Shown: in pieces, positions 5,457-38,432 of the stretch
How the letters are laid out: the number at the start of each line of letters is the position of its first letter
Position numbering within the stretch: position 1 is the first letter of the stretch
Source: an uncultured Alphaproteobacteria bacterium
Lineage (GTDB): Bacteria > Pseudomonadota > Alphaproteobacteria > VGEJ01
Direction of reading: 5' to 3'
DNA length: 46,699 nucleotides
Assembly: GCA_913041535.1 (NCBI GenBank)
Contig: CAJWJK010000014.1
Span: 1 to 46,699, forward strand
Made by a program: the position numbers and the translations under genes
The notes under the pieces: generated by a model
The model's input: the letters and a program-made list of their open reading frames with translations, nothing else
Told to the model about the DNA's origin: nothing
Database searches by the model: none

Positions 5457-6254
5457 ATGCTCGGTCATATAGAGATAGAGAGAGCTGCACGACTTATCTG
5501 GAATTGCTGGCAAACTGGGGAGACAATAGAGCGGTTACCCGATTCTTTGAGCCCCAGTACGCGAGCAGAAGCATATGAAATTCAGGCACATTATGGGACG
5601 TTTAGTGGGAGTCCCATATTTGGGTGGAAGATTGCTGCTACCAGCACTGCTGGGCAGAACCATATTGGTGTGTCTGGGCCAATAGTTGGGAGACTTTTAC
5701 GGAATCGAGTCTTTCAACCAGATTCTTCTCTACGTTTCGGGTCAAATCGGATGGCCGTTGCTGAGCCAGAATTTGCCTTTCGAATAGGGACAACGTTATA
5801 TCCTAGGTCCACTGAGTATAAACTTGAAGAAGTAAGTGCAGCTGTTGCCTCACTTCATGGCGCAGTTGAAATTCCTAACTCCCGCTTTCTTAATTATGCT
5901 TGTGTCGGAGAGAATAATTTGATTGCTGATAATGCATGTGCTCATGAGGTGGTAGTGGGCCCCTCAATGTGTAATTCATGGAGGTCTTTGGACCTTGCAC
6001 ACCATGAAGTCAGCATTTCGGTTTTAAATGGTGAAACTAATAAGGGGATAGGGGCCAACGTACTTGGAGACCCGTGGGCAGCTTTGACATGGATTGCAAA
6101 TGAACTTAGCGAAAATAATACAAGTTTGTCAGCAGGAGATACTGTGATAACTGGAACATGCGCAGACCCAATTAGTATCAGTTCAGGTGATACTGTTATT
6201 GTTGATTATGGCACGCTTGGTCTTATTCAGGTCAGCTTTTCCGAAGATGGGTAG
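5457..6254 (+). CDS. 2-keto-4-pentenoate hydratase / fumarylacetoacetase-fold family enzyme
   Basis: Belongs to the MhpD-like hydratase/decarboxylase group, metal-dependent enzymes that hydrate or decarboxylate 2-oxo acids in aromatic and related catabolic pathways. The 265-residue length is normal. The GWKIAAT segment places the family lysine at K58, and the E-x-E metal-binding pair is E103/E105 in AEPEFAFRIG. A further conserved stretch, AVEIPNSRF, follows near residue 138. The ATG at 5457 has an AAAGGA ribosome-binding site just upstream (about 5444-5450). It ends 41 bases before the thioredoxin-like gene and probably shares its transcript. A relative of identical length lies at 27220-28017. 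No other ring-cleavage pathway genes are adjacent, so the substrate is unknown. Confidence 0.85.
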   Translation: MLGHIEIERAARLIWNCWQTGETIERLPDSLSPSTRAEAYEIQAHYGTFSGSPIFGWKIAATSTAGQNHIGVSGPIVGRLLRNRVFQPDSSLRFGSNRMAVAEPEFAFRIGTTLYPRSTEYKLEEVSAAVASLHGAVEIPNSRFLNYACVGENNLIADNACAHEVVVGPSMCNSWRSLDLAHHEVSISVLNGETNKGIGANVLGDPWAALTWIANELSENNTSLSAGDTVITGTCADPISISSGDTVIVDYGTLGLIQVSFSEDG

Positions 6255-28327: not shown

Positions 28328-28357
28328 ACATTGGAAATATGTAATAAGTGGTTTGAT

Positions 28358-30445
28358 GTGTGTTCGGATAGTCTAGTACGTATTGGTGTTGATATCGGCG
28401 GAACCTTTACAGACGTTGCTCTGGAAATTGGTGAAAAACAACACACGGTGAAAGTGTTAACAACCGTCGAGGCCCCAGAACGGGGTGTAATCAGTGCGAT
28501 AAATCAAGTTTTGCATGAGACGTCAGTTTCGTCTGCAAGCGTCGGAATTGTTATTCACGGAACCACTCTTGCAACGAACGCTATTATTGAACGAAAAGGT
28601 GCACGGACGGCTCTTTTAACGACGGAAGGCTTTCGAGATATCGTTGAAATAAGGCACGAGAGTAGGTTTGATCAATACGATTTAGATATAGAGCTACCAA
28701 AACCTTTAGTCCCTCGATATTTAAGGCTTCCCATTATGGAAAGAGTAAATGCCCAAGGTGGAGTTCTGGTGCCCCTATGTGAATCTGATGTCGAGAATGC
28801 AATTAAGCTTATGCGCGCATCTGAAGTCGAGAGCGTGGCTGTGGGGTATCTTCATAGTTTTATGAATTCAACTCACGAGGAACGAACGGCAGAAATTCTT
28901 AAGGAAAAAATGCCTGATGTAGGCATATCACTATCGTGTGAGGTGTCGCCTGAGATGCGCGAATATGAGCGCCTTTCAACTGCATGTGCAAATGCATATG
29001 TTCAGCCGTTAATGTCTGAGTATTTGGGTAAGCTAGCTAATGGGCTCAAAACTCACGGTATCGAAGCACCACTTTTCCTCATGTCATCTGGAGGAGGAAT
29101 TACCACAGTGGAGACGGCTAGACGCTTTCCGGTTAGATTGGTGGAGTCTGGTCCGGCAGGTGGTGCAATATTCGCGTGCGGGATAGCGAATGTGTACGAC
29201 CTGGACGAAGTGCTTTCTTTTGATATGGGTGGTACCACGGCGAAGGTGTGTCTTATTGACAAAGGGAACGCTCAGGTAGGAAGGGCACTTGAGGTTGCTC
29301 GAGTATACCGCTTCAAGAAGGGAAGTGGTTTGCCACTCCGTATTCCGGTTATTGAGATGGTAGAGATTGGTGCTGGAGGTGGTTCGATAGCACGCCAGGA
29401 CTCAATGGGGCGGATCACGGTGGGCCCAGACAGCTCGGGTGCTAAGCCTGGGCCCGTTTGTTATGGACTAGGTGGGTCGGAGCCAACTGTAACCGATGCT
29501 AATCTCATTCTTGGAAGACTTGATACGGGAGACTTTACATTGAGTGGCCTAAGTCTTGACTTGCCGTCAACTATGAGCGTTTTGCATCAGTTTGGTGAAA
29601 AAATTGGATTGTCAGCAGAACATGCAGCACTAGGCATTAGTGAGGTTGTGGAAGAAAATATGTCAAATGCTGCACGTGTCCATGCGGTAGAGAGTGGCAA
29701 GAGTATTGAGACGCGGACGCTTGTGGCGTTTGGTGGTGCAGCGCCACTACATGCTGCGAGAATTGCAGACAAACTGGGTATTCAACGCGTAATAGTTCCC
29801 AATGGTGCTGGAGTGGGATCTGCTCTTGGCTTTTTGCGAGCTCCATTCTCTTTCGAAGTTGCTCGGTCGCATCATCAGGAATTAGTGAACTTTGATCCAA
29901 AGGCTACTAACACAGTACTTGATGCTATGCGTAAGGAGGCCGAATCAGTTGTGAAAAGCGCTGCTGAAGGGGCACCGCTGATTGAAGAGAGGGCTGCATT
30001 TATGCGGTATAGCGGACAAGGACATGAGATCCGTGTTCCGTTGACGTCCAGAAACTATTTGAAGGGGGATGAACTTGTTTTGCAGTCGGAATTCGAGGAA
30101 CGCTATAAAGAACTCTATCGTCGCATTATACCGGGTGCTCCTGTTGAGGTGATGAGTTGGGTATTGACCATTAGCACTGAAGTGGCATCTTTTGGGTCTT
30201 CAGTTATTGCTAAAGAATATTTGCTGGCTGAATCTGTAGGCATGAGAGATGTAGTAGACCCTGTTAGTGGCAGTTTTGAGAAAATCCCGATTTATCAACG
30301 GCATCAACTTCACGATGGGAGTAAGGTTAAGGGCCCAGCAATTATTGTAGAAAGTGAAACTTCAACGATGGTAGGCGCGAACTTTGATGCCCGTATCGAT
30401 AATCTGGGGAACATAGATATGAATCGTAAACCAAGCGAATCATAG
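28358..30445 (+). CDS. hyuA: Hydantoinase/oxoprolinase family protein, subunit A
   Basis: ATP-dependent ring-opening subunit of the N-methylhydantoinase / 5-oxoprolinase / acetone carboxylase family; works with HyuB. About 695 residues. The actin-like phosphate loop IGVDIGGTFTDVA starts near residue 8, and the FDMGGTTAKVCL segment near residue 290 is the second nucleotide-binding signature. The ESGPAGGA motif precedes it. GTG 28358 is preferred because a -10 box sits at 28322-28327 and an AAGTGG site is 6 bases upstream; alternatives are TTG 28331 or a later codon. The stop abuts the hyuB start with no gap. The substrate class (hydantoin, oxoproline, or a ketone) cannot be resolved from sequence, so the symbol is used in its general family sense. 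Confidence 0.88.
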   Translation: MCSDSLVRIGVDIGGTFTDVALEIGEKQHTVKVLTTVEAPERGVISAINQVLHETSVSSASVGIVIHGTTLATNAIIERKGARTALLTTEGFRDIVEIRHESRFDQYDLDIELPKPLVPRYLRLPIMERVNAQGGVLVPLCESDVENAIKLMRASEVESVAVGYLHSFMNSTHEERTAEILKEKMPDVGISLSCEVSPEMREYERLSTACANAYVQPLMSEYLGKLANGLKTHGIEAPLFLMSSGGGITTVETARRFPVRLVESGPAGGAIFACGIANVYDLDEVLSFDMGGTTAKVCLIDKGNAQVGRALEVARVYRFKKGSGLPLRIPVIEMVEIGAGGGSIARQDSMGRITVGPDSSGAKPGPVCYGLGGSEPTVTDANLILGRLDTGDFTLSGLSLDLPSTMSVLHQFGEKIGLSAEHAALGISEVVEENMSNAARVHAVESGKSIETRTLVAFGGAAPLHAARIADKLGIQRVIVPNGAGVGSALGFLRAPFSFEVARSHHQELVNFDPKATNTVLDAMRKEAESVVKSAAEGAPLIEERAAFMRYSGQGHEIRVPLTSRNYLKGDELVLQSEFEERYKELYRRIIPGAPVEVMSWVLTISTEVASFGSSVIAKEYLLAESVGMRDVVDPVSGSFEKIPIYQRHQLHDGSKVKGPAIIVESETSTMVGANFDARIDNLGNIDMNRKPSES

Positions 30446-32203
30446 GTGGTTTCTTTGTTGCAAAATCCAAACTCGCCGTTAGATCATATAAAACACCAAA
30501 TCATGTGGAGTCGGCTTATTGCTGTAGTAGAGGAGCAGGCGCAGACGCTCGTGCGCACCGCATTTAGCACAGCTGTACGTGAAGCAGGAGATCTATCTGC
30601 AGGGGTTTTTGATAGTCGGGGACGCATGTTAGCACAAGCAGTTACTGGAACTCCGGGACACGTTAATTCAATGGCAAACGCCGTAAAACATTTTCTTCAG
30701 CGCTATCCATTAAACGAAATGGCGGAGGGAGATCACTACATTAGCAATGACCCATGGTTGACCAGTGGGCATTTGCACGACTTTACCCTTGTAAGCCCTG
30801 CTTTTTTCAGCGGAAGAGCAGTTGGATTGTTTGCCTCTACAGTTCACGTGGTTGACATTGGGGGTCTTGGATTAGGGCCAGATGGGAGGCAAGTATTTGA
30901 AGAAGGACTGGCCATACCTATTATGCCGCTAGCTAGGCATTCGGAATTCAATGATGATCTTCTCAAGATAGTATCGGAGAATGTCCGAATGCCAGACCAA
31001 GTTGTAGGAGATCTATATGCGTTGGCATCATGCAATGATGAGGGTGCACGACGATTAGATGCAATGATGGTCGAATTTCAAATCGAAAACTTGGAGAATC
31101 TTGGGGAATACATATTGGTATCATCTAAGAATGCAAAAATGCAGGCAATTCGTGAATTGCCCAGTGGTAAATACTGTAATGAACTGACCATGGATGGCTA
31201 TGATTCGCCTGTGGTGTTGTGTGCTGAGCTGACGATTGATGACAATCATATACACGTCGATTATTCGGGAAGCTCCTCCGCAAGTCGTTACGGAATAAAT
31301 GTTGTAATGAACTATTGTGAAGCCTATACAGCTTATGGCGTCAATTGTGTCATTGCTCCTCATGTTCCCAACAACGCGGGGTCTCTTGCTGCAATTACAG
31401 TGAGTGCGCCAGAGGGATCAATTCTCAACGTTAAACGTCCTTGGCCAGTTGCCGCACGTCATACCATAGGACATATGCTTCCAGATGTTATTTTTGGTTG
31501 TTTACAACAGGTGATACCTGAACGGGTACCAGCGGAGGGCGCTGCATCTCTATGGAATCCTCAAATCAACGGGGGAGGGTCAGTAGTGGATCATGTGTAT
31601 TCGCAGGATGGAAGCGACTGCTCAAGCCTACAGGAATTTTCGAGCGTGATTTTTCACTGTGGTGGGGCCGGGGCAAGACCAAATAAGGACGGTCTTGACG
31701 TGACCGCATTTCCTAGTGGTGTTAGGACAATCCCAATAGAGGCAACAGAGACCATCGCCCCGATAGTGTTTTGGCGGCGAGAATTTCGTGAGAACTCCTG
31801 CGGATCAGGGCAATACCGAGGCGGGCTTGGTCAAGTAATAGAGATAGGTGGTGCCAACGGTTCGCCTTTCACGATTCTTTGTAATTTTGAACGAATTAAT
31901 AATCCTGCCCGCGGTAGACAAGGTGGCTTAAATGGTGCGCCTGGGGCGGTGTCGTTAGCTTCTGGAGAGCCTATACGGCCGAAAGGCCGACAATCCGTTC
32001 CTTCAGGAGATCGTATTTGTTTAGCACTTCCTGGTGGTGGAGGGTTTGGAGAGCCCTTTGAGCGGGATCCTAACTTGGTAGCACTTGACATTCGTGATGG
32101 TATTATTTCGGCAGATCTTGCTAAGAAGGACTATGGCGTAATTATTGAGGATAATATCGTTGATTTATTAGCTACAAACCGTGCGCGCAAGCAACATGAT
32201 TAA
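30446..32203 (+). CDS. hyuB: Hydantoinase/oxoprolinase family protein, subunit B
   Basis: Catalytic-partner subunit of the HyuA/HyuB family. The 585-residue protein has the subunit B hallmarks: a SRLIAVVEEQAQTLVRTAFS opening near residue 23, REAGDLSAGVFD, and NDPWLTSGHLHDF with likely metal-site histidines near residue 110. The C-terminal RGGLGQVIEI and PGGGGFGEP segments are also typical. GTG 30446 follows the hyuA stop directly, so translation is coupled. Six bases separate its stop from the ATG of the EF-hand gene. Which ring or carbonyl compound it opens is unknown. Confidence 0.88.
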   Translation: MVSLLQNPNSPLDHIKHQIMWSRLIAVVEEQAQTLVRTAFSTAVREAGDLSAGVFDSRGRMLAQAVTGTPGHVNSMANAVKHFLQRYPLNEMAEGDHYISNDPWLTSGHLHDFTLVSPAFFSGRAVGLFASTVHVVDIGGLGLGPDGRQVFEEGLAIPIMPLARHSEFNDDLLKIVSENVRMPDQVVGDLYALASCNDEGARRLDAMMVEFQIENLENLGEYILVSSKNAKMQAIRELPSGKYCNELTMDGYDSPVVLCAELTIDDNHIHVDYSGSSSASRYGINVVMNYCEAYTAYGVNCVIAPHVPNNAGSLAAITVSAPEGSILNVKRPWPVAARHTIGHMLPDVIFGCLQQVIPERVPAEGAASLWNPQINGGGSVVDHVYSQDGSDCSSLQEFSSVIFHCGGAGARPNKDGLDVTAFPSGVRTIPIEATETIAPIVFWRREFRENSCGSGQYRGGLGQVIEIGGANGSPFTILCNFERINNPARGRQGGLNGAPGAVSLASGEPIRPKGRQSVPSGDRICLALPGGGGFGEPFERDPNLVALDIRDGIISADLAKKDYGVIIEDNIVDLLATNRARKQHD

Positions 32204-32209
32204 GCATTG

Positions 32210-32770
32210 ATGGCGTTTCGGTTTGAATTGTCTGGAATGCACAAACAGATATTATTGATAACGGTAGTGACGTTTTTTTTATACGCACATGGGCATTCGG
32301 AAGAGTCTTTATCAGAGGTTTTTCTTATGGATCAATTCATATTGGATGCAGGACTAATCTGCAACGTTCGCCCAAGTGCCGAATGTATAGATATTGGATG
32401 GGAATATGTTGATACCGATGCAGATGGTAAATTAACTTTATCGGAAGTCATCGTGTCTAAAAAAGCACTGTCGGATTGGACTGTTTGGGAAAAGGCATCT
32501 CTCAGTACGCGGCAACGTGATGCTTTTGCAATCAGTTTATGGTTTATAGATGGGGTGGGCATAGAAAATATATTTCAATCCTATGATTCAGATGGAAACG
32601 GTTTTCTAAGGCTTGAAGAATTTATTGTTGATATTGACCTTGACCACCGTCCACTTATCGCTGTTTTATCAGATCCTACAGCAGTTGATACAGAGTCAGT
32701 GTCCCGCCGCTTTGGAAATTTTGAGCCCCTTATCGGAGAGCTGCTAATGGGCGAACAATTTCGTCAATAG
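32210..32770 (+). CDS. Secreted EF-hand calcium-binding protein
   Basis: A small protein with two canonical EF-hand loops. Loop 1 is D68-x-D70-x-D72-G-K-x-T76-x-x-E79, and loop 2 is D126-x-D128-x-N130-G-F-x-R134-x-x-E137, with all main calcium ligands present. A hydrophobic signal-like stretch near residues 10-27 (HKQILLITVVTFFLYAHG) suggests export; two cysteines at C51 and C59 could form a periplasmic disulfide. The ATG at 32210 gives 186 residues; ATG 32237, just before the signal, is an alternative. It begins six bases after hyuB, so it is almost certainly co-transcribed with hyuAB. I know of no established link between such a protein and hydantoinases. Confidence 0.75.
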   Translation: MAFRFELSGMHKQILLITVVTFFLYAHGHSEESLSEVFLMDQFILDAGLICNVRPSAECIDIGWEYVDTDADGKLTLSEVIVSKKALSDWTVWEKASLSTRQRDAFAISLWFIDGVGIENIFQSYDSDGNGFLRLEEFIVDIDLDHRPLIAVLSDPTAVDTESVSRRFGNFEPLIGELLMGEQFRQ

Positions 32771-32857
32771 TAACGCTAAATTGGCCGTGAACTTAGGAGC
32801 GTTTAGGGAACGCCATTTGCACGGAGACTTTTGGCGACATAGAAGCAATTACATATA

Positions 32858-34231
32858 TTAGATCAATTGTTCATTCTTTAGCATGGATAGCGATTCTCTG
32901 AATGCACTGGCAGTGTCCGTTAGTTCTCTTTCTGTATGTGCTGCCGATATAATAGCTCCTGGCCACCCATTAAAGTCGACACCATTAATAATCATTGCCA
33001 AGCGTAGTTTCTGTATAACATCCCCATTTTGCTTTATTAATTGATCGTATCGGTACTCATTTGCTTTGAAGTTTTCGGGGTCTATTGAATAATTATCGGG
33101 GTTGGTAAAAAGATGCAATGCCGAATATTCGCCATATGCGGCCCACGGAATTGACTCCTCTTTGAGTACGGAATTCAATAGCGTGCGCAGGCGATTTCCA
33201 TAATCGTTTGCGATATCGCATGGGTTGGTGTGACGAACAATATTAAGTGTTGAGATGCCTGCGGCTGCTGAAACCGGGTTTGCGTTAAAGGTGCCTTGAT
33301 GTTGAATCTTTTCCCTATCTGTGCGACGGGCTGCATCAAAATCAAGGGCTGCAAGAATATCCTCTCGGCCTACAACTGCACCTCCAGGAAGGCCGCCGGC
33401 CAAGATCTTAGCAAGGGTTGTTAAGTCGGGAATAATGTCGTGGCGGCCCTGAAATCCGGTTGGCGAGACGCGAAAACCAGTTACCACTTCGTCAAAAATT
33501 AACAAAATATCATTTTTAGTCGTAATATCTCGCAATTCGGAAACAAATTGGGTTGTCACAGGGACTTTTCCAAACAATCCCCCGGTGGGCTCTAGTATAA
33601 TGGCTGCAATATCAGGATCGCGCTCTAGGGTCTCTTTTGTTGCCTCCACGTCTCCTGGTGGGAGCAGAACAATCTTTTCAGCGAGTCCAGGCAGAACGCC
33701 GGGAGTTGCTTTGCCGTCAAAATGAGAACTAAATCCGGAAGTCATGTGGTCATGCCAGCCATGAAAATTTGTTCTGTAACGTATAAGTTTGTCCTTTCCT
33801 GTAAAGGCTCGAGCAAGCCTTAGCGCCATATGGGTTGCTTCAGTACCTGAGGAGGTGAATCTAACTCTAGCTGCGCTGGGCACTAGTTCTTGAACAATTT
33901 GAGCCCATCGGACTTCTCGAGGATGGTTAGCTCCAAAATGGGTGCCTTCGTCATAAGCTTCGTGAACGGCCTTTGAAACCTCGGGTGGGTTATGGCCCAG
34001 CATTAATGCGCCGTGACCGCCGAAGTAGTCTATGTATTCGTTGCCATCAATGTCCCATTTTCTTGCACCCATAGCCTTTTCTATATAGATCCCGTAGGGC
34101 TTTAGGTATCGGCTATCATGTGTAATACCACTAGGAAATGATTTCCGTGCATCCGCTATCAACTCGGCAGACCTTTTAGTCCTCTCCTTATAAGCAGCTA
34201 TTATGCGTGAGTTTGATAAACCAATGGACAT
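32858..34231 (-). CDS. Class III aminotransferase, glutamate-1-semialdehyde aminomutase-like
   Basis: A PLP enzyme of fold type I related to HemL. The 457-residue length exceeds typical HemL (about 430). The cofactor lysine is K275 in TTLAKILAGGLPGGAVVG, and the cofactor aspartate is in FDEVVTGFR near residues 246-254. The SSGTEATHMALRLAR segment near residue 127 binds the phosphate. The closest groups are the catabolic HemL-like aspartate aminotransferase family rather than heme-pathway HemL, which I infer from the context (last gene of a transport and CoA-enzyme run). It probably transaminates an amino acid or amine made by the neighbouring enzymes. Confidence 0.82.
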   Translation of the reverse strand: MSIGLSNSRIIAAYKERTKRSAELIADARKSFPSGITHDSRYLKPYGIYIEKAMGARKWDIDGNEYIDYFGGHGALMLGHNPPEVSKAVHEAYDEGTHFGANHPREVRWAQIVQELVPSAARVRFTSSGTEATHMALRLARAFTGKDKLIRYRTNFHGWHDHMTSGFSSHFDGKATPGVLPGLAEKIVLLPPGDVEATKETLERDPDIAAIILEPTGGLFGKVPVTTQFVSELRDITTKNDILLIFDEVVTGFRVSPTGFQGRHDIIPDLTTLAKILAGGLPGGAVVGREDILAALDFDAARRTDREKIQHQGTFNANPVSAAAGISTLNIVRHTNPCDIANDYGNRLRTLLNSVLKEESIPWAAYGEYSALHLFTNPDNYSIDPENFKANEYRYDQLIKQNGDVIQKLRLAMIINGVDFNGWPGAIISAAHTERELTDTASAFRESLSMLKNEQLI

Positions 34232-34302
34232 GGTGTTGTCTCCAAAACGATTCGCAGAACAAATGATAGATTACCAAAAAAAAACGCGCTTCATTATATT
34301 AA

Positions 34303-34719
34303 TTAACTCTGTCGCCATGGTAATCCTTTGAATTTCCAGCCACCCAAATTGGCGCGGTGTTGGGAGTCATCAAGGTCACCTTCAAATCCTTCAAGCACGT
34401 TATAGCATTGGGGGTAACCGTGTTCCGTCATCAGGCTTGCCGCCGCCATGGAGCGTGAACCGCTACGACAGATAAACAGTAACTCATTATCTGGCAAAGC
34501 CCCATACGTAATAAGCTGGCTCGCAAAATTTGCTGTCAACTGTGGGTCAGGTTGCAGCGGCCACTCTGCCATGATCAATTCTTTTCCTAGGGGTTTAACG
34601 TCAGGTATTCCAACAAAATTCCATTCTGCTTTTGTCCTAACGTCGATTAACAAGGTCTTAAGGTTTTTCTGCAGCATATCCCATGCTGTGTTTGGGCTAA
34701 CATCATCTTTATATTTCAT
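34303..34719 (-). CDS. Rhodanese-like sulfurtransferase domain protein
   Basis: A single-domain rhodanese, probably moving sulfane sulfur. With ATG 34719 the protein has 138 residues. The DVRTKAEW segment (residues 26-33) and the active-site loop CRSGSRS with C84 are both intact, so it should be catalytic; the C84-R-S-G-S-R pattern is of the usual six-residue loop type. The longer frame to 34770 adds 17 residues with no better ribosome-binding site. It sits inside the CoA-enzyme run, which might only reflect co-transcription. No sulfur pathway link is visible. Confidence 0.82.
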   Translation of the reverse strand: MKYKDDVSPNTAWDMLQKNLKTLLIDVRTKAEWNFVGIPDVKPLGKELIMAEWPLQPDPQLTANFASQLITYGALPDNELLFICRSGSRSMAAASLMTEHGYPQCYNVLEGFEGDLDDSQHRANLGGWKFKGLPWRQS

Positions 34720-34791
34720 GTGATGAATCCATTTATTAGCGCTAATGAGGTTGCTACCTATCCAAAGCATTTAACCACAGTGTGGTATAAA

Positions 34792-35583
34792 CTACTTGCC
34801 AGTAAAGACAGGGTCTCGCTTTTCCATGAACGCGCGTCTTCCCTCAATATAATCTTCACTTTCAAAGCAAGCTCGTACGAGGGCTTCATTAGCAGATATA
34901 TCGCGTTCATCAGAATCCTTGAGTGACTCGCTCACAGCATGCTTCATCGCCGCTATAGTCAAAGGCGCGTTCCTGGCTATGCGTTCGGCATAGTCATTAA
35001 CTGTTCTCTGAAGACTGGAGGAGGGGACGACACAGTTCGCAAGGCCAATGGCATATGCCCGCTGTGCATTTAGATTGGTTGCTGAAAAAGCTATCTCTTT
35101 TGCCATGGCTGGGCCAACCACCTCCATAAGGCGCCTTATACCTTCTAGAGAGTATCCGAGACCTAACCGTGCAGCAGGAAGGCCAAACATTGATGTGTCA
35201 GAGCAAATCCTTAGATCACACGATAGTGCTAGGGCCAACCCTCCTCCAATACAGTATCCATTAATCATGGCGATAGTGGGTATCTTTGAAGAGTGCAGGC
35301 TATTAAACACACGCGCTGTGATTTCTTCGTACTTCTCAATATCATTCACTAGGGATCTATTTTCCTCAAATTCAGAGATATCCGCACCAGATACGAAAGA
35401 TTTTCCTCCTGCACCGCTTAGCACCAAAACCCGAATCTTGGACTCTTGTAGGTAGTTATCGATCACAAGCTGTGCTTTTTGCCACATTGCTAGCGAAACT
35501 GCATTGTGACGTTCGGGGTTGTTGAAGATCAGATTGCCAATTAATCCTTCGGTTTTTGCCAGTATTTTTTGATTAGGTGTCAT
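34792..35583 (-). CDS. Crotonase-fold protein (enoyl-CoA hydratase/isomerase family)
   Basis: A crotonase-superfamily enzyme acting on an acyl-CoA. With ATG 35583 it has 263 residues; GTG 35601 is an alternative. The oxyanion-hole segments SGADISEF near residues 66-73 and GYCIGGGLALA near 109-119 are intact. However, both glutamates used by classical enoyl-CoA hydratase are replaced: the first position reads GGGLA instead of GGGCE, and the second reads LPAARLGLG instead of PEI-LG. It is therefore unlikely to be a standard hydratase; isomerase, decarboxylase or hydrolase activity is possible. The neighbouring CoA-transferase and SDR make a CoA-linked catabolic role likely. Confidence 0.85.
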   Translation of the reverse strand: MTPNQKILAKTEGLIGNLIFNNPERHNAVSLAMWQKAQLVIDNYLQESKIRVLVLSGAGGKSFVSGADISEFEENRSLVNDIEKYEEITARVFNSLHSSKIPTIAMINGYCIGGGLALALSCDLRICSDTSMFGLPAARLGLGYSLEGIRRLMEVVGPAMAKEIAFSATNLNAQRAYAIGLANCVVPSSSLQRTVNDYAERIARNAPLTIAAMKHAVSESLKDSDERDISANEALVRACFESEDYIEGRRAFMEKRDPVFTGK

Positions 35584-35605
35584 CCGCGACCCCACTTTCA
35601 CATCT

Positions 35606-36808
35606 TCATATAATATCGCGAGATCGTAGCGCGTCTATATCTGTTTGTGAGTAACCGAATTCAGCGAGGATTTCTCGGGAGTGTTGTCCACAGTCTGGTG
35701 CTGATGCAGTAATCGAACTAGGTGTGCGAGTCAGAGTAACCGGGCTGCCGACTAGCTTAATTGAACCTAGTTCTGTGGATTCAACTTTACGCGCGATATC
35801 AAGATGTTTAACTTGTGGGTCTGCAAACATTTCATCTATATTGTATATTGGTCCACATGGCACGCCTTCCTCATTTAACTTGTTTATCCAATATTCGCTA
35901 TCATGTGATGATAGGTGTTGATTGAGTTCCGCATTGAGGGTTTTGCGATTAAGAGATCGGGATTGTGCATCTCTATACAATGAATTTTCCGGTAATCCGA
36001 CAGCTCCAACCGCTTTACACAGCCGCTTCCAAATAGTCTCGCCGGAGGCACCAATCGTTATATAGCCATCTCTCGTTTTGTACACACCCATTGGAATACG
36101 GGTAGGGTGGTCATTCCCAGCTTGTTTTGGGATTTCACCATCAATTAAATAACGTGCTGCCTGGAAATCCAGCATAAAAATCTGCGCTTCTAAAAGTGAG
36201 GTGTGTAACCATTGCCCTTTTCCAGATACTTCTCTTTCGAGTAAGGCTATTAAGATACCGTTGGCACAAAGGAGTCCCGCTGCAAGGTCGGAGATAGGGA
36301 CACCCACGCGAAGAGGCCCTTGCTCGGGAAGGCCAGTTATGGACATTAGACCACCCATACCCTGGGCAATCTGATCGAATCCGGGGCGATTCTTGTATGG
36401 GCCGTCTTGACCAAAGCCTGAGATACTAGCGTATACGATACGGTCATTAAGACTTTGTATAGAATTGTAGTCGATACAAAGTCTATTTTTCACCTCAGGT
36501 CGGTAGTTTTCAATAATAACGTCAGCGTGAGAAGCCATTTTCAAAAAAACACTTAATCCGTCTTTCTGCTTAAGGTCGAGAGCAATACTTCTTTTGTTCC
36601 GATGAAGATTCTGAAAGTCTGCATCATGGCGGCTCCCTCCTGTGGTGTCACCTTCAATGCCTGTTGGACGTTGTTCAATTTTTATTACATTGGCACCCCA
36701 ATCGGCCAACTGACGTGCTGCAGTTGGCCCGGCACGGGCTCTCGTGAGATCCAGGACAACGAAGCGGGATAAGGGATGTAATTTTGATCCATTATTCATA
36801 GTAGACAT
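35606..36808 (-). CDS. Class III CoA-transferase (CaiB/BaiF family)
   Basis: Moves CoA between carboxylic acids, activating a substrate for the next step. The 400-residue length is typical. The N-terminus has RARAGPTAARQLADWGANVIKIE, and the IIENYRPEV and SGFGQDGPY segments are characteristic. The usual catalytic aspartate (in a S-x-x-D-A context, as in formyl-CoA transferase) appears here as glutamate E207 in SLLEAQI. Related sequences in this subfamily also vary at the site, so activity cannot be ruled out. The start ATG 36808 is one base after the SDR stop codon (TAG-G-ATG), so translation is coupled. The crotonase gene follows closely. Confidence 0.9.
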   Translation of the reverse strand: MSTMNNGSKLHPLSRFVVLDLTRARAGPTAARQLADWGANVIKIEQRPTGIEGDTTGGSRHDADFQNLHRNKRSIALDLKQKDGLSVFLKMASHADVIIENYRPEVKNRLCIDYNSIQSLNDRIVYASISGFGQDGPYKNRPGFDQIAQGMGGLMSITGLPEQGPLRVGVPISDLAAGLLCANGILIALLEREVSGKGQWLHTSLLEAQIFMLDFQAARYLIDGEIPKQAGNDHPTRIPMGVYKTRDGYITIGASGETIWKRLCKAVGAVGLPENSLYRDAQSRSLNRKTLNAELNQHLSSHDSEYWINKLNEEGVPCGPIYNIDEMFADPQVKHLDIARKVESTELGSIKLVGSPVTLTRTPSSITASAPDCGQHSREILAEFGYSQTDIDALRSRDII

Positions 36809-36809
36809 C

Positions 36810-37559
36810 CTACACCATTACATCTCCGCCATTCATGTTCATTGAGGCGCCAACGTAATAGCTTCCTTCGTCTGAAGCTAATAGCAATGCGCTAGGTGCA
36901 ATCTCCTCAACGCGAGCAAATCGACCAATTGGCTGTCGGTCAAAATAGTCGTCAAACCACTCGCTAGGCAATGAGCGGTTCATGGGAGTGTCAACGCTCG
37001 CAGGTGCCAACGCATTTACAGTTATTCCTTCTCTTGCTACCTCGTAAGCAAGAGAGCGCGTGAAACCTAGCACTCCAGCCTTCGAAGCGGAATAATGGGT
37101 TAAGCCTGGGGCCCCTCTATGTGCTACTTGGGATGCCACGTTGATTATCCTTCCCCATTTATTATTGCGCATCGCCGGGAGCGCTTCCCGTGAGCATAAG
37201 AACATGCTTCGGAGGTTGACACGCATAACTTCATCCCATTGGGCGAGAGTCATTTCATTAAACGGAACCACCGAGCCAATACCTGCGTTATTAACAAGGA
37301 TATCAATATCTCCAAGTTTCTCTCTGATAGTTGTAAACGCGCTATACACTCCTCGTTCATCCCCAACGTCTGCGGCAACTCCTAGCGTTAGGGTTCCATA
37401 GACCCCAATTTTTTCTGCTGCTGTCTGACAAGCGACGTCATCAAGGTCGATAATTGAGACGGAGGCTCCTTCTTTGGCAAATAATTTTGCAATAGCAAAA
37501 CCTATACCCTGGGCTGCCCCAGTGACTAAAGCTTTCTTATTATCTAGTTTGCCAGACAT
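36810..37559 (-). CDS. Short-chain dehydrogenase/reductase (SDR)
   Basis: NAD(P)-dependent oxidoreductase of the classical SDR type, likely acting on a hydroxyacyl or alcohol intermediate. With ATG 37559, supported by a GAGGA ribosome-binding site, it has 249 residues. The cofactor motif TGAAQGIG (residues 13-20) and NNAG (90-93) are present, as is the catalytic triad S143, Y156, K160. An aspartate after the second strand (IIDLDD) suggests a preference for NAD. It leads directly into the CoA-transferase gene with one base between stop and start. Confidence 0.93.
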   Translation of the reverse strand: MSGKLDNKKALVTGAAQGIGFAIAKLFAKEGASVSIIDLDDVACQTAAEKIGVYGTLTLGVAADVGDERGVYSAFTTIREKLGDIDILVNNAGIGSVVPFNEMTLAQWDEVMRVNLRSMFLCSREALPAMRNNKWGRIINVASQVAHRGAPGLTHYSASKAGVLGFTRSLAYEVAREGITVNALAPASVDTPMNRSLPSEWFDDYFDRQPIGRFARVEEIAPSALLLASDEGSYYVGASMNMNGGDVMV

Positions 37560-37698
37560 GAATTTCCTCATCAGTTGCGATATCAGTTGATAGAATTGCT
37601 AGTTTACAATGGTCCGCCGTTCAGCCGTATTGTTTGTGCCTGAAATAATATTCGGCCAATTATATAGACTACTAGGGTACAGTTGGATGAAAGGTAAG

Positions 37699-38421
37699 TT
37701 AACGAAAATTAGATGGAGAGACGTTGGGGGATGAACGCTTGCGTAAGTGAGCTGATAACCTATGTTCTACCCGTTTTGAAATATATAGAATCACGTATGT
37801 GATCAGGAGATATATTACTCCCGCTGCTATATACAATTTGTATGGTTCGAAACTACGGGCGACGATTATCCGCGCGACGCCTGTTAGGTCGAGCAAGGTT
37901 ATGATCGACACTAAGGAAGTTGCCTGTAGGAGAAAAATTACCTCGTTAGTATACGCCGGTAAGGCAAGACGAAATGCTTTCGGCAGGACGATGCGGCGGT
38001 ATAACAGAACGCTCGACATTCCGTGTGCTCTGGCAGCTTCCACCTCACCACGTGGTATGCTTTGGATAGATCCCCGCAGTATTTCTGCAGTATATGCGGC
38101 CGTGTTCAGTGTTAATGTTAGTACCGCGCAGAAATATGCTTCACGAAAGAACAACCAAAGGCCGACCCTATCAAGGAATTCTTGGAATTGACCAGAGCCG
38201 TAGTACACCAAGAATAGCTGGACTAGAAGCGGCGTTCCTCGAAAATAAAATATGTAACTATAAACCGGAATGCGAATATAGGACTTATCGGACAATCTCA
38301 TGATGGCTAAGGGAACGGCGAGAGCCAGGCCAATCAATATGCTAAGGCCCGTGATTTCCAAAGTCAGCAGAGCTCCGCCCAAAAGGCGGGGCAGGCTTTC
38401 CCAAATTATAGTTAGGTCCAT
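37699..38421 (-). CDS. Polar amino-acid ABC transporter permease (HisM-like)
   Basis: Inner-membrane subunit of a His/Glu/Arg-type importer. About 240 residues with five predicted helices. The FRGTPLLVQLFLVYYG opening of the permease domain and the EAA loop (EVEAARAHGMSSVLLYRRIVLPKA) that docks the ATPase are visible. The start is ATG 38421; the longer frame adds only one TTG codon. It overlaps nothing and follows the other permease by 11 bases. A 139-base gap then separates it from the SDR gene, so the transport genes could be one transcript and the enzymes may or may not continue it. Confidence 0.9.
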   Translation of the reverse strand: MDLTIIWESLPRLLGGALLTLEITGLSILIGLALAVPLAIMRLSDKSYIRIPVYSYIFYFRGTPLLVQLFLVYYGSGQFQEFLDRVGLWLFFREAYFCAVLTLTLNTAAYTAEILRGSIQSIPRGEVEAARAHGMSSVLLYRRIVLPKAFRLALPAYTNEVIFLLQATSLVSIITLLDLTGVARIIVARSFEPYKLYIAAGVIYLLITYVILYISKRVEHRLSAHLRKRSSPNVSPSNFR

Positions 38422-38432
38422 CAAGGTTCTCT

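Follow-up and report, generated by a model that had tools for sequence, protein, structure and literature searches.

A putative exported EF-hand protein encoded behind hyuAB in an uncultured alphaproteobacterium is very probably not a HyuAB partner

Introduction

In the window (the whole stretch of 46 699 nt that was analysed, contig CAJWJK010000014.1), hyuA and hyuB are followed on the same strand by a small gene for a protein with EF-hand motifs. The first-pass annotation of this DNA took the protein to be secreted and coupled to hyuAB, and suggested that it might sense or stabilise a periplasmic component of the import step. The question raised by the locus is whether the EF-hand protein belongs functionally with HyuAB or whether it stands alone and lies behind hyuB in this lineage only.

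Results

hyuAB and the surrounding genes

The genes hyuA (28331-30445, + strand; Hydantoinase_A) and hyuB (30446-32203, + strand; Hydantoinase_B/oxoprolinase) have as their best NCBIfam models CapA (E 1.4e-142) and CapB (E 2.9e-54), neither of which reaches its cut-off. As these are the models of caprolactamase, HyuAB is likely to be a cyclic-amide hydrolase and, like CapAB as described in PMC8453981, would be cytosolic and ATP-dependent. The run of hyuA, hyuB and the EF-hand gene contains no transporter gene, and the amino-acid-type ABC permease of the window (37699-38424) is encoded on the strand opposite to hyuAB. Nothing here therefore links hyuAB and the EF-hand gene to an import step, and the suggested role for the protein at a periplasmic component of that step finds no backing here.

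A convergent run lies at 32858-37571 on the - strand. Genes for a class III aminotransferase and an enoyl-CoA hydratase belong to it, as does one for a CaiB-type CoA-transferase, whose best model, succinate-glutarate CoA-transferase, scores below the cut-off; a rhodanese-like protein and an SDR were named by eye. Taken with 28331-32203 on the + strand, this run could be a cluster for the degradation of lactams or omega-amino acids.

Position and start of the EF-hand gene

The stop codon of hyuB (TAA, 32201-32203) is separated by six bases from the next ATG (32210), as had been noted at first pass, and the ORF that begins there (P0001; 32210-32770, + strand) encodes 186 aa. The six-base gap requires this first ATG to be used. 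Most homologues start near residue 10 of P0001 in the family alignment, which suggests that the ATG at 32237 is perhaps the true start, with a gap of 33 bases after hyuB; we regard this start as at least as likely. A convincing Shine-Dalgarno sequence was seen at neither ATG 32210 nor ATG 32237.

The G+C content of the EF-hand gene is 0.408, compared with 0.473 in hyuB and 0.464 across the window. There is no terminator-like site in 31900-33000, and a promoter-like site within the start of the EF-hand gene (32228-32255) is at the level of chance (2 sites in a region where 2.6 are expected). Close spacing is common in the window: the mechanically called ORFs 34792-35601 and 35606 onwards, 35606-36808 and 36810 onwards, and 5457-6254 and 6254 onwards are equally tight or overlapping.

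Judging from its homologues, the ORF is a genuine gene and belongs to an alphaproteobacterial family. It is more than a chance ORF, since 14 of 384 other genomes of the class sample encode a homologue with 27-39% identity to P0001 (best E 1.2e-29).

Features of the predicted protein

Pfam EF-hand_1 matches P0001 over two stretches with 30.5 bits (cut-off 25.4). Loop 1, DTDADGKLTLSE, occupies residues 68-79 (32411-32446, + strand) and loop 2, DSDGNGFLRLEE, residues 126-137 (32585-32620, + strand). Each has 12 residues within a predicted helix-loop-helix and passes our ligand check, which asks for acceptable residues at loop positions 1, 3, 5 and 12; the first-pass observation that both loops keep the main calcium ligands was therefore correct. 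The same is true of the signal-like N-terminus with two cysteines. Residues 10-29 (32237-32296, + strand) resemble a signal peptide, with Met-His-Lys, a hydrophobic core and AHG at a possible cleavage site, and the evidence for export consists of hydropathy and a predicted helix (residues 10-27 in the AlphaFold2 model). The core (residues 14-25) has a mean Kyte-Doolittle value of 2.64, compared with 1.69 to 2.83 in the 14 foreign members of alignment A1, and a hydrophobic N-terminal stretch is present in 15/15 members of A1, whose start sites were mostly chosen by us. Cys51 and Cys59 (32360-32386, + strand) are invariant in every row of both family alignments, A1 and A4, and in P0001 probably form a disulphide. 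Loop 2 is followed by DIDLDHRPL (32630-32656, + strand), for which the family consensus is DVxLDxRPL. In silico, these features support P0001 as a calcium-binding protein with two EF-hands, probable export and a probable disulphide.

AlphaFold2, run with 13 sequences, predicts a paired EF-hand lobe (mean pLDDT 87, pTM 0.73). Foldseek against the PDB gave weak matches (best E 0.062, none at E < 0.001). When the Foldseek candidates were aligned structurally, the top row was Frq2 (4by4; Z 7.5, rmsd 4.5 over 100 residues), and residues ~53-144 fitted calmodulin and troponin C lobes in many rows (Z 6-7, rmsd 2.2-2.9 over 65-71 residues; for the calmodulin-type 1mxe, Z 6.7, rmsd 2.4 over 68 residues), values below the Z of 8 under which, by the aligner's own warning, only a common arrangement may be shared. 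The structural alignment together with the EF-hand sequence motifs leads us to take the fold as a paired EF-hand lobe. P0001 resembles calmodulin-type proteins in this lobe but differs in having a single one, in the longer helical insert that separates its loops, in additional helices on either side, and in its probable export. In a PDB sequence search (E up to 0.01), nearly all of the best 60 of 362 distinct sequences have their best match over about one EF-hand.

Distribution and conservation of the family

In the class sample 15 of 385 genomes have a match, the window's own included; the 14 foreign homologues occur one per genome in 10 families. Only 2 of 96 nearby genomes have a match, and the window's own is one of them. 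A scan of named genomes with P0001 alone gave no match, and a scan with a four-member alignment gave 12 loci, all in records titled MAG, from Rhodospirillaceae, Geminicoccaceae, uncultured Alphaproteobacteria, Proteobacteria and one Rhizobium sp. Five of these (L060, L063, L066, L070 and L071) duplicate proteins of the class sample, which leaves 7 new ones and 21 distinct foreign homologues. A profile search of 349 genomes of the phylum found full-length members in G000, G029 and G159 only, and six more, shorter matches, one of them at a second place in G029. P0001 has no match at E 1e-5 in 72 556 plasmid records. The window's genome has no second copy of the gene, and its only match to EF-hand_7 (E up to 0.01) is the EF-hand gene itself, below that family's cut-off.

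Neither Pfam nor NCBIfam gave a model specific to the family. Pfam finds EF-hand models, a weak EH match (below the cut-off) for P0001 and weak dockerin matches in 3/13 members. P0001 has no NCBIfam match up to E 0.1; of 15 members, 13 match XopAW (best E 4.7e-7), 4 a deiodinase-like model, 3 lanmodulin (best E 0.0015) and 1 HadA, which we tentatively take as similarity at the level of the EF loop.

The invariant columns are M1, C51, C59, D126, E137 and D141 in A1 (15 sequences), and C51, C59, W90, D126, G131, E137, D141, L144, D145, R147, D155 and R167 in A4 (13 sequences). Six of the 21 homologues do not pass the ligand check at loop 1 (L025, identical to L070, and L064, L065, L067, L068 and L069), and all six retain both cysteines, loop 2 and the motif that follows it (with RSL for RPL in one). 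Loop 2 passes in 20/21, the exception being L026 with threonine at position 5. This pattern suggests that the family core consists of the cysteine pair, EF-hand 2 and DVxLDxRPL, and that two intact loops are optional across the family. Membership was defined by similarity along residues ~34-180 and by the presence of the two cysteines, of EF-hand 2 and of the D141/D145/R147 motif. P0001 has all of these as judged from searches with P0001 alone and from the alignment columns, its match to the profile being circular because it is part of that profile. A distant member of 279 aa in G365 (L029/L015; E 2.6e-4) has ~90 extra N-terminal residues and lacks DVxLDxRPL; it is included in all counts of 14 and 21.

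Adjacency to hyuAB in other genomes

The coupling proposed at first pass implies that the two kinds of gene should be neighbours in relatives. HyuA and HyuB were searched by tblastn (E up to 1) against the flanks of the 21 distinct homologues and had a convincing match in 0/21. The matches of HyuA at L064 (E 0.53) and L069 (E 0.68) are at the level of chance, and the controls L030 and L032 were strong in the same run. The flanks cover ~3.5-6.4 kb per side; shorter ones occur at L029 and L064, on one side each (72 bases and 2.4 kb), and on both sides at L068 (2.0 and 2.3 kb).

In the other direction, the family profile (E up to 0.01) matched 0/29 foreign HyuB loci (L031-L059), with the window's own locus (L030) matched as a control. 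The sequence 3' of HyuB in these loci is ~1.5 kb in 24/29, ~0.75-0.78 kb in L032, L033 and L036, 0.24 kb in L037 and nil in L031. Nine HyuB genes taken with longer surroundings where the contig allowed (L081-L089) had no family member at E up to 0.1. In G001, the only genome in the comparison from the same taxonomic family as the window's, and in four others with a close HyuB, a search at E up to 0.01 found no EF-hand family member. The G001 assembly (93% complete, 450 contigs) has its hyuB truncated by a contig end (L031), so that the downstream neighbour is unreadable. An adjacency screen of 14 loci run without a positive control had the same outcome as the later screens, which had controls (L001 and L030-L059 in one, L030 and L032 in the other). 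The genes behind hyuB vary among genomes, as in L087, where a peroxiredoxin-like gene (by eye) lies two bases on. Within the sequence covered, adjacency is thus absent in both directions, and the proposed partnership was rejected on this ground.

The EF-hand gene itself is found beside a variety of genes. It lies directly after mutS, with a 4-base overlap, in L027 (mutS by Pfam) and L062 (protein 56.5% identical to that of L027), directly after phaC in L022 (phaC by Pfam) and L024 (74% identical), at 11 and 14 bases, and 10 bases after a gene judged lipoprotein-like by eye and without a Pfam match in L018 and L019, where adenylosuccinate lyase is next. Tight spacing behind an unrelated gene is therefore seen in 6/21 homologues, which suggests that the close spacing to hyuB is nothing special. 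Elsewhere the neighbours are FMO-like and fatty-acid-desaturase-type genes (L016), MFS and M20 peptidase genes (L017), genes for an RTX-repeat protein and an amidohydrolase (L020), luciferase-like and Rieske oxygenase genes (L025), an AraC/Ada-type gene and EamA (L026) and a zinc alcohol dehydrogenase gene (L028). Neighbouring genes were called by a home-made amino-acid score; this caller missed the EF-hand homologue in L016, L021, L024 and L027, choosing overlapping ORFs, and the positions were taken from tblastn. In L020 (4880-6653) the EF-hand homologue is convergent with the RTX calcium-binding-repeat gene, four bases apart.

Some HyuB match is present in 14/14 foreign carriers of the EF-hand gene and in 218/384 genomes overall (Fisher p 4e-4, uncorrected for genome size or kinship), and a close HyuB (best E at most 1e-149) in 7/14 carriers and 79/384 overall (p 0.012, likewise uncorrected). 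The carriers have genomes of 2.9-5.9 Mb, and many of the HyuB-free genomes listed, a minority of all those that lack HyuB, are small. Among the matches listed for the seven carriers with a close HyuB, the HyuB places are on contigs other than that of the EF-hand gene. The enrichment favours coupling weakly.

Discussion

The EF-hand protein is real and ordinary, and very probably not a partner of HyuAB. We hold with good confidence that it is a stand-alone, exported, periplasmic calcium-binding protein whose position behind hyuAB is lineage-specific and carries no functional partnership. What stands of the first-pass interpretation, on in silico grounds, is the probably exported calcium-binding protein; what lacks support is its partnership with HyuAB or an import step. 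The gene is the last behind hyuAB and probably co-transcribed with it, and the small product would be exported through Sec to the periplasm. There the two loops are predicted to pair into a calmodulin-like lobe that would bind calcium, and the helix before the loops would probably be held by the Cys51-Cys59 disulphide; calcium binding most likely takes place after export and oxidation of this cysteine pair. A stand-alone calcium sensor or a calcium-stabilised adaptor appears the most likely function, with the conserved DVxLDxRPL segment as the likeliest contact with a partner.

The loss of EF-hand 1 in some members suggests that in these calcium is merely needed to present the C-terminal segment, and a variant of the stand-alone reading, compatible with it, extends this to a chaperone-like or structural periplasmic adaptor in which calcium, bound in EF-hand 2, would serve only to maintain the fold on which DVxLDxRPL is displayed. 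The persistence of the cysteines, EF-hand 2 and the motif in the six homologues with a degenerate loop 1 speaks for such an adaptor, but both loops of P0001 are canonical and there is no known partner, so that we entertain it only as a tentative possibility. A partnership with HyuAB, recruited in this lineage, would have the protein sense calcium or stabilise a periplasmic component that imports the HyuAB substrate. The shared strand, the gap of 6 (or 33) bases without a terminator-like site and the enrichment of HyuB among carriers would fit this; set against the lack of adjacency at the 21 foreign homologues and the 29 foreign HyuB loci, and against a gene run with no transporter and a permease on the other strand, it is improbable. 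More improbable still is a lanmodulin-like periplasmic protein whose metal is a lanthanide. The loops of lanmodulin have proline at position 2, which is found in neither DTDADGKLTLSE nor DSDGNGFLRLEE, and P0001 has only two loops, 46 residues apart, and no NCBIfam match, even though the lanmodulin model reaches three of the 15 family members.

The six-base adjacency, being unconserved, is poor evidence on the function of HyuAB, and a false lead is avoided. As a by-product, an EF-hand family with clear conserved residues emerges for which Pfam and NCBIfam gave no specific model, a candidate alphaproteobacterial periplasmic calcium binder. It is conceivable, though we would not press the point, that this exported family, with its invariant cysteines, its DVxLDxRPL motif and some members with a single calcium site, represents a periplasmic calcium module that inserts after genes as unrelated as mutS, phaC and hyuB and is transcribed along with them.

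Known exported EF-hand proteins offer comparisons, among them CasA of Rhizobium etli, also named calsymin. By its description in PMC9132961, CasA is a secreted bacterial EF-hand protein, as P0001 probably is, but differs in having three EF-hands and a role in symbiosis. The same source describes EfhP (PA4107) of Pseudomonas aeruginosa as a small protein with a signal peptide, predicted to be periplasmic, which has two canonical EF-hands and binds calcium. In its small size, its number of canonical EF-hands and, probably, its signal peptide EfhP is like P0001, whereas it has 123 residues after the signal peptide and loop starts 27 residues apart (D88 and D115), compared with 58 in P0001 (PMC9132961). 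The one paper found to name both hydantoinase and EF-hand concerns carbonate precipitation.

The alphaproteobacterial EF-hand protein CaBP (CCNA_02838) of Caulobacter vibrioides is, by its description in PMC13171946, periplasmic with a Sec signal peptide, as is probable for P0001. It differs from P0001 in its length (133 aa), its three EF-hand motifs and a coding sequence that contains the promoter of sigV, a gene for a sigma factor (PMC13171946). In L024 (6260-7444) an ECF-like gene, in which sigma-70 regions 2 and 4 are recognised, lies 75 bases after the EF-hand homologue, an arrangement that recalls cabp-sigV of Caulobacter.
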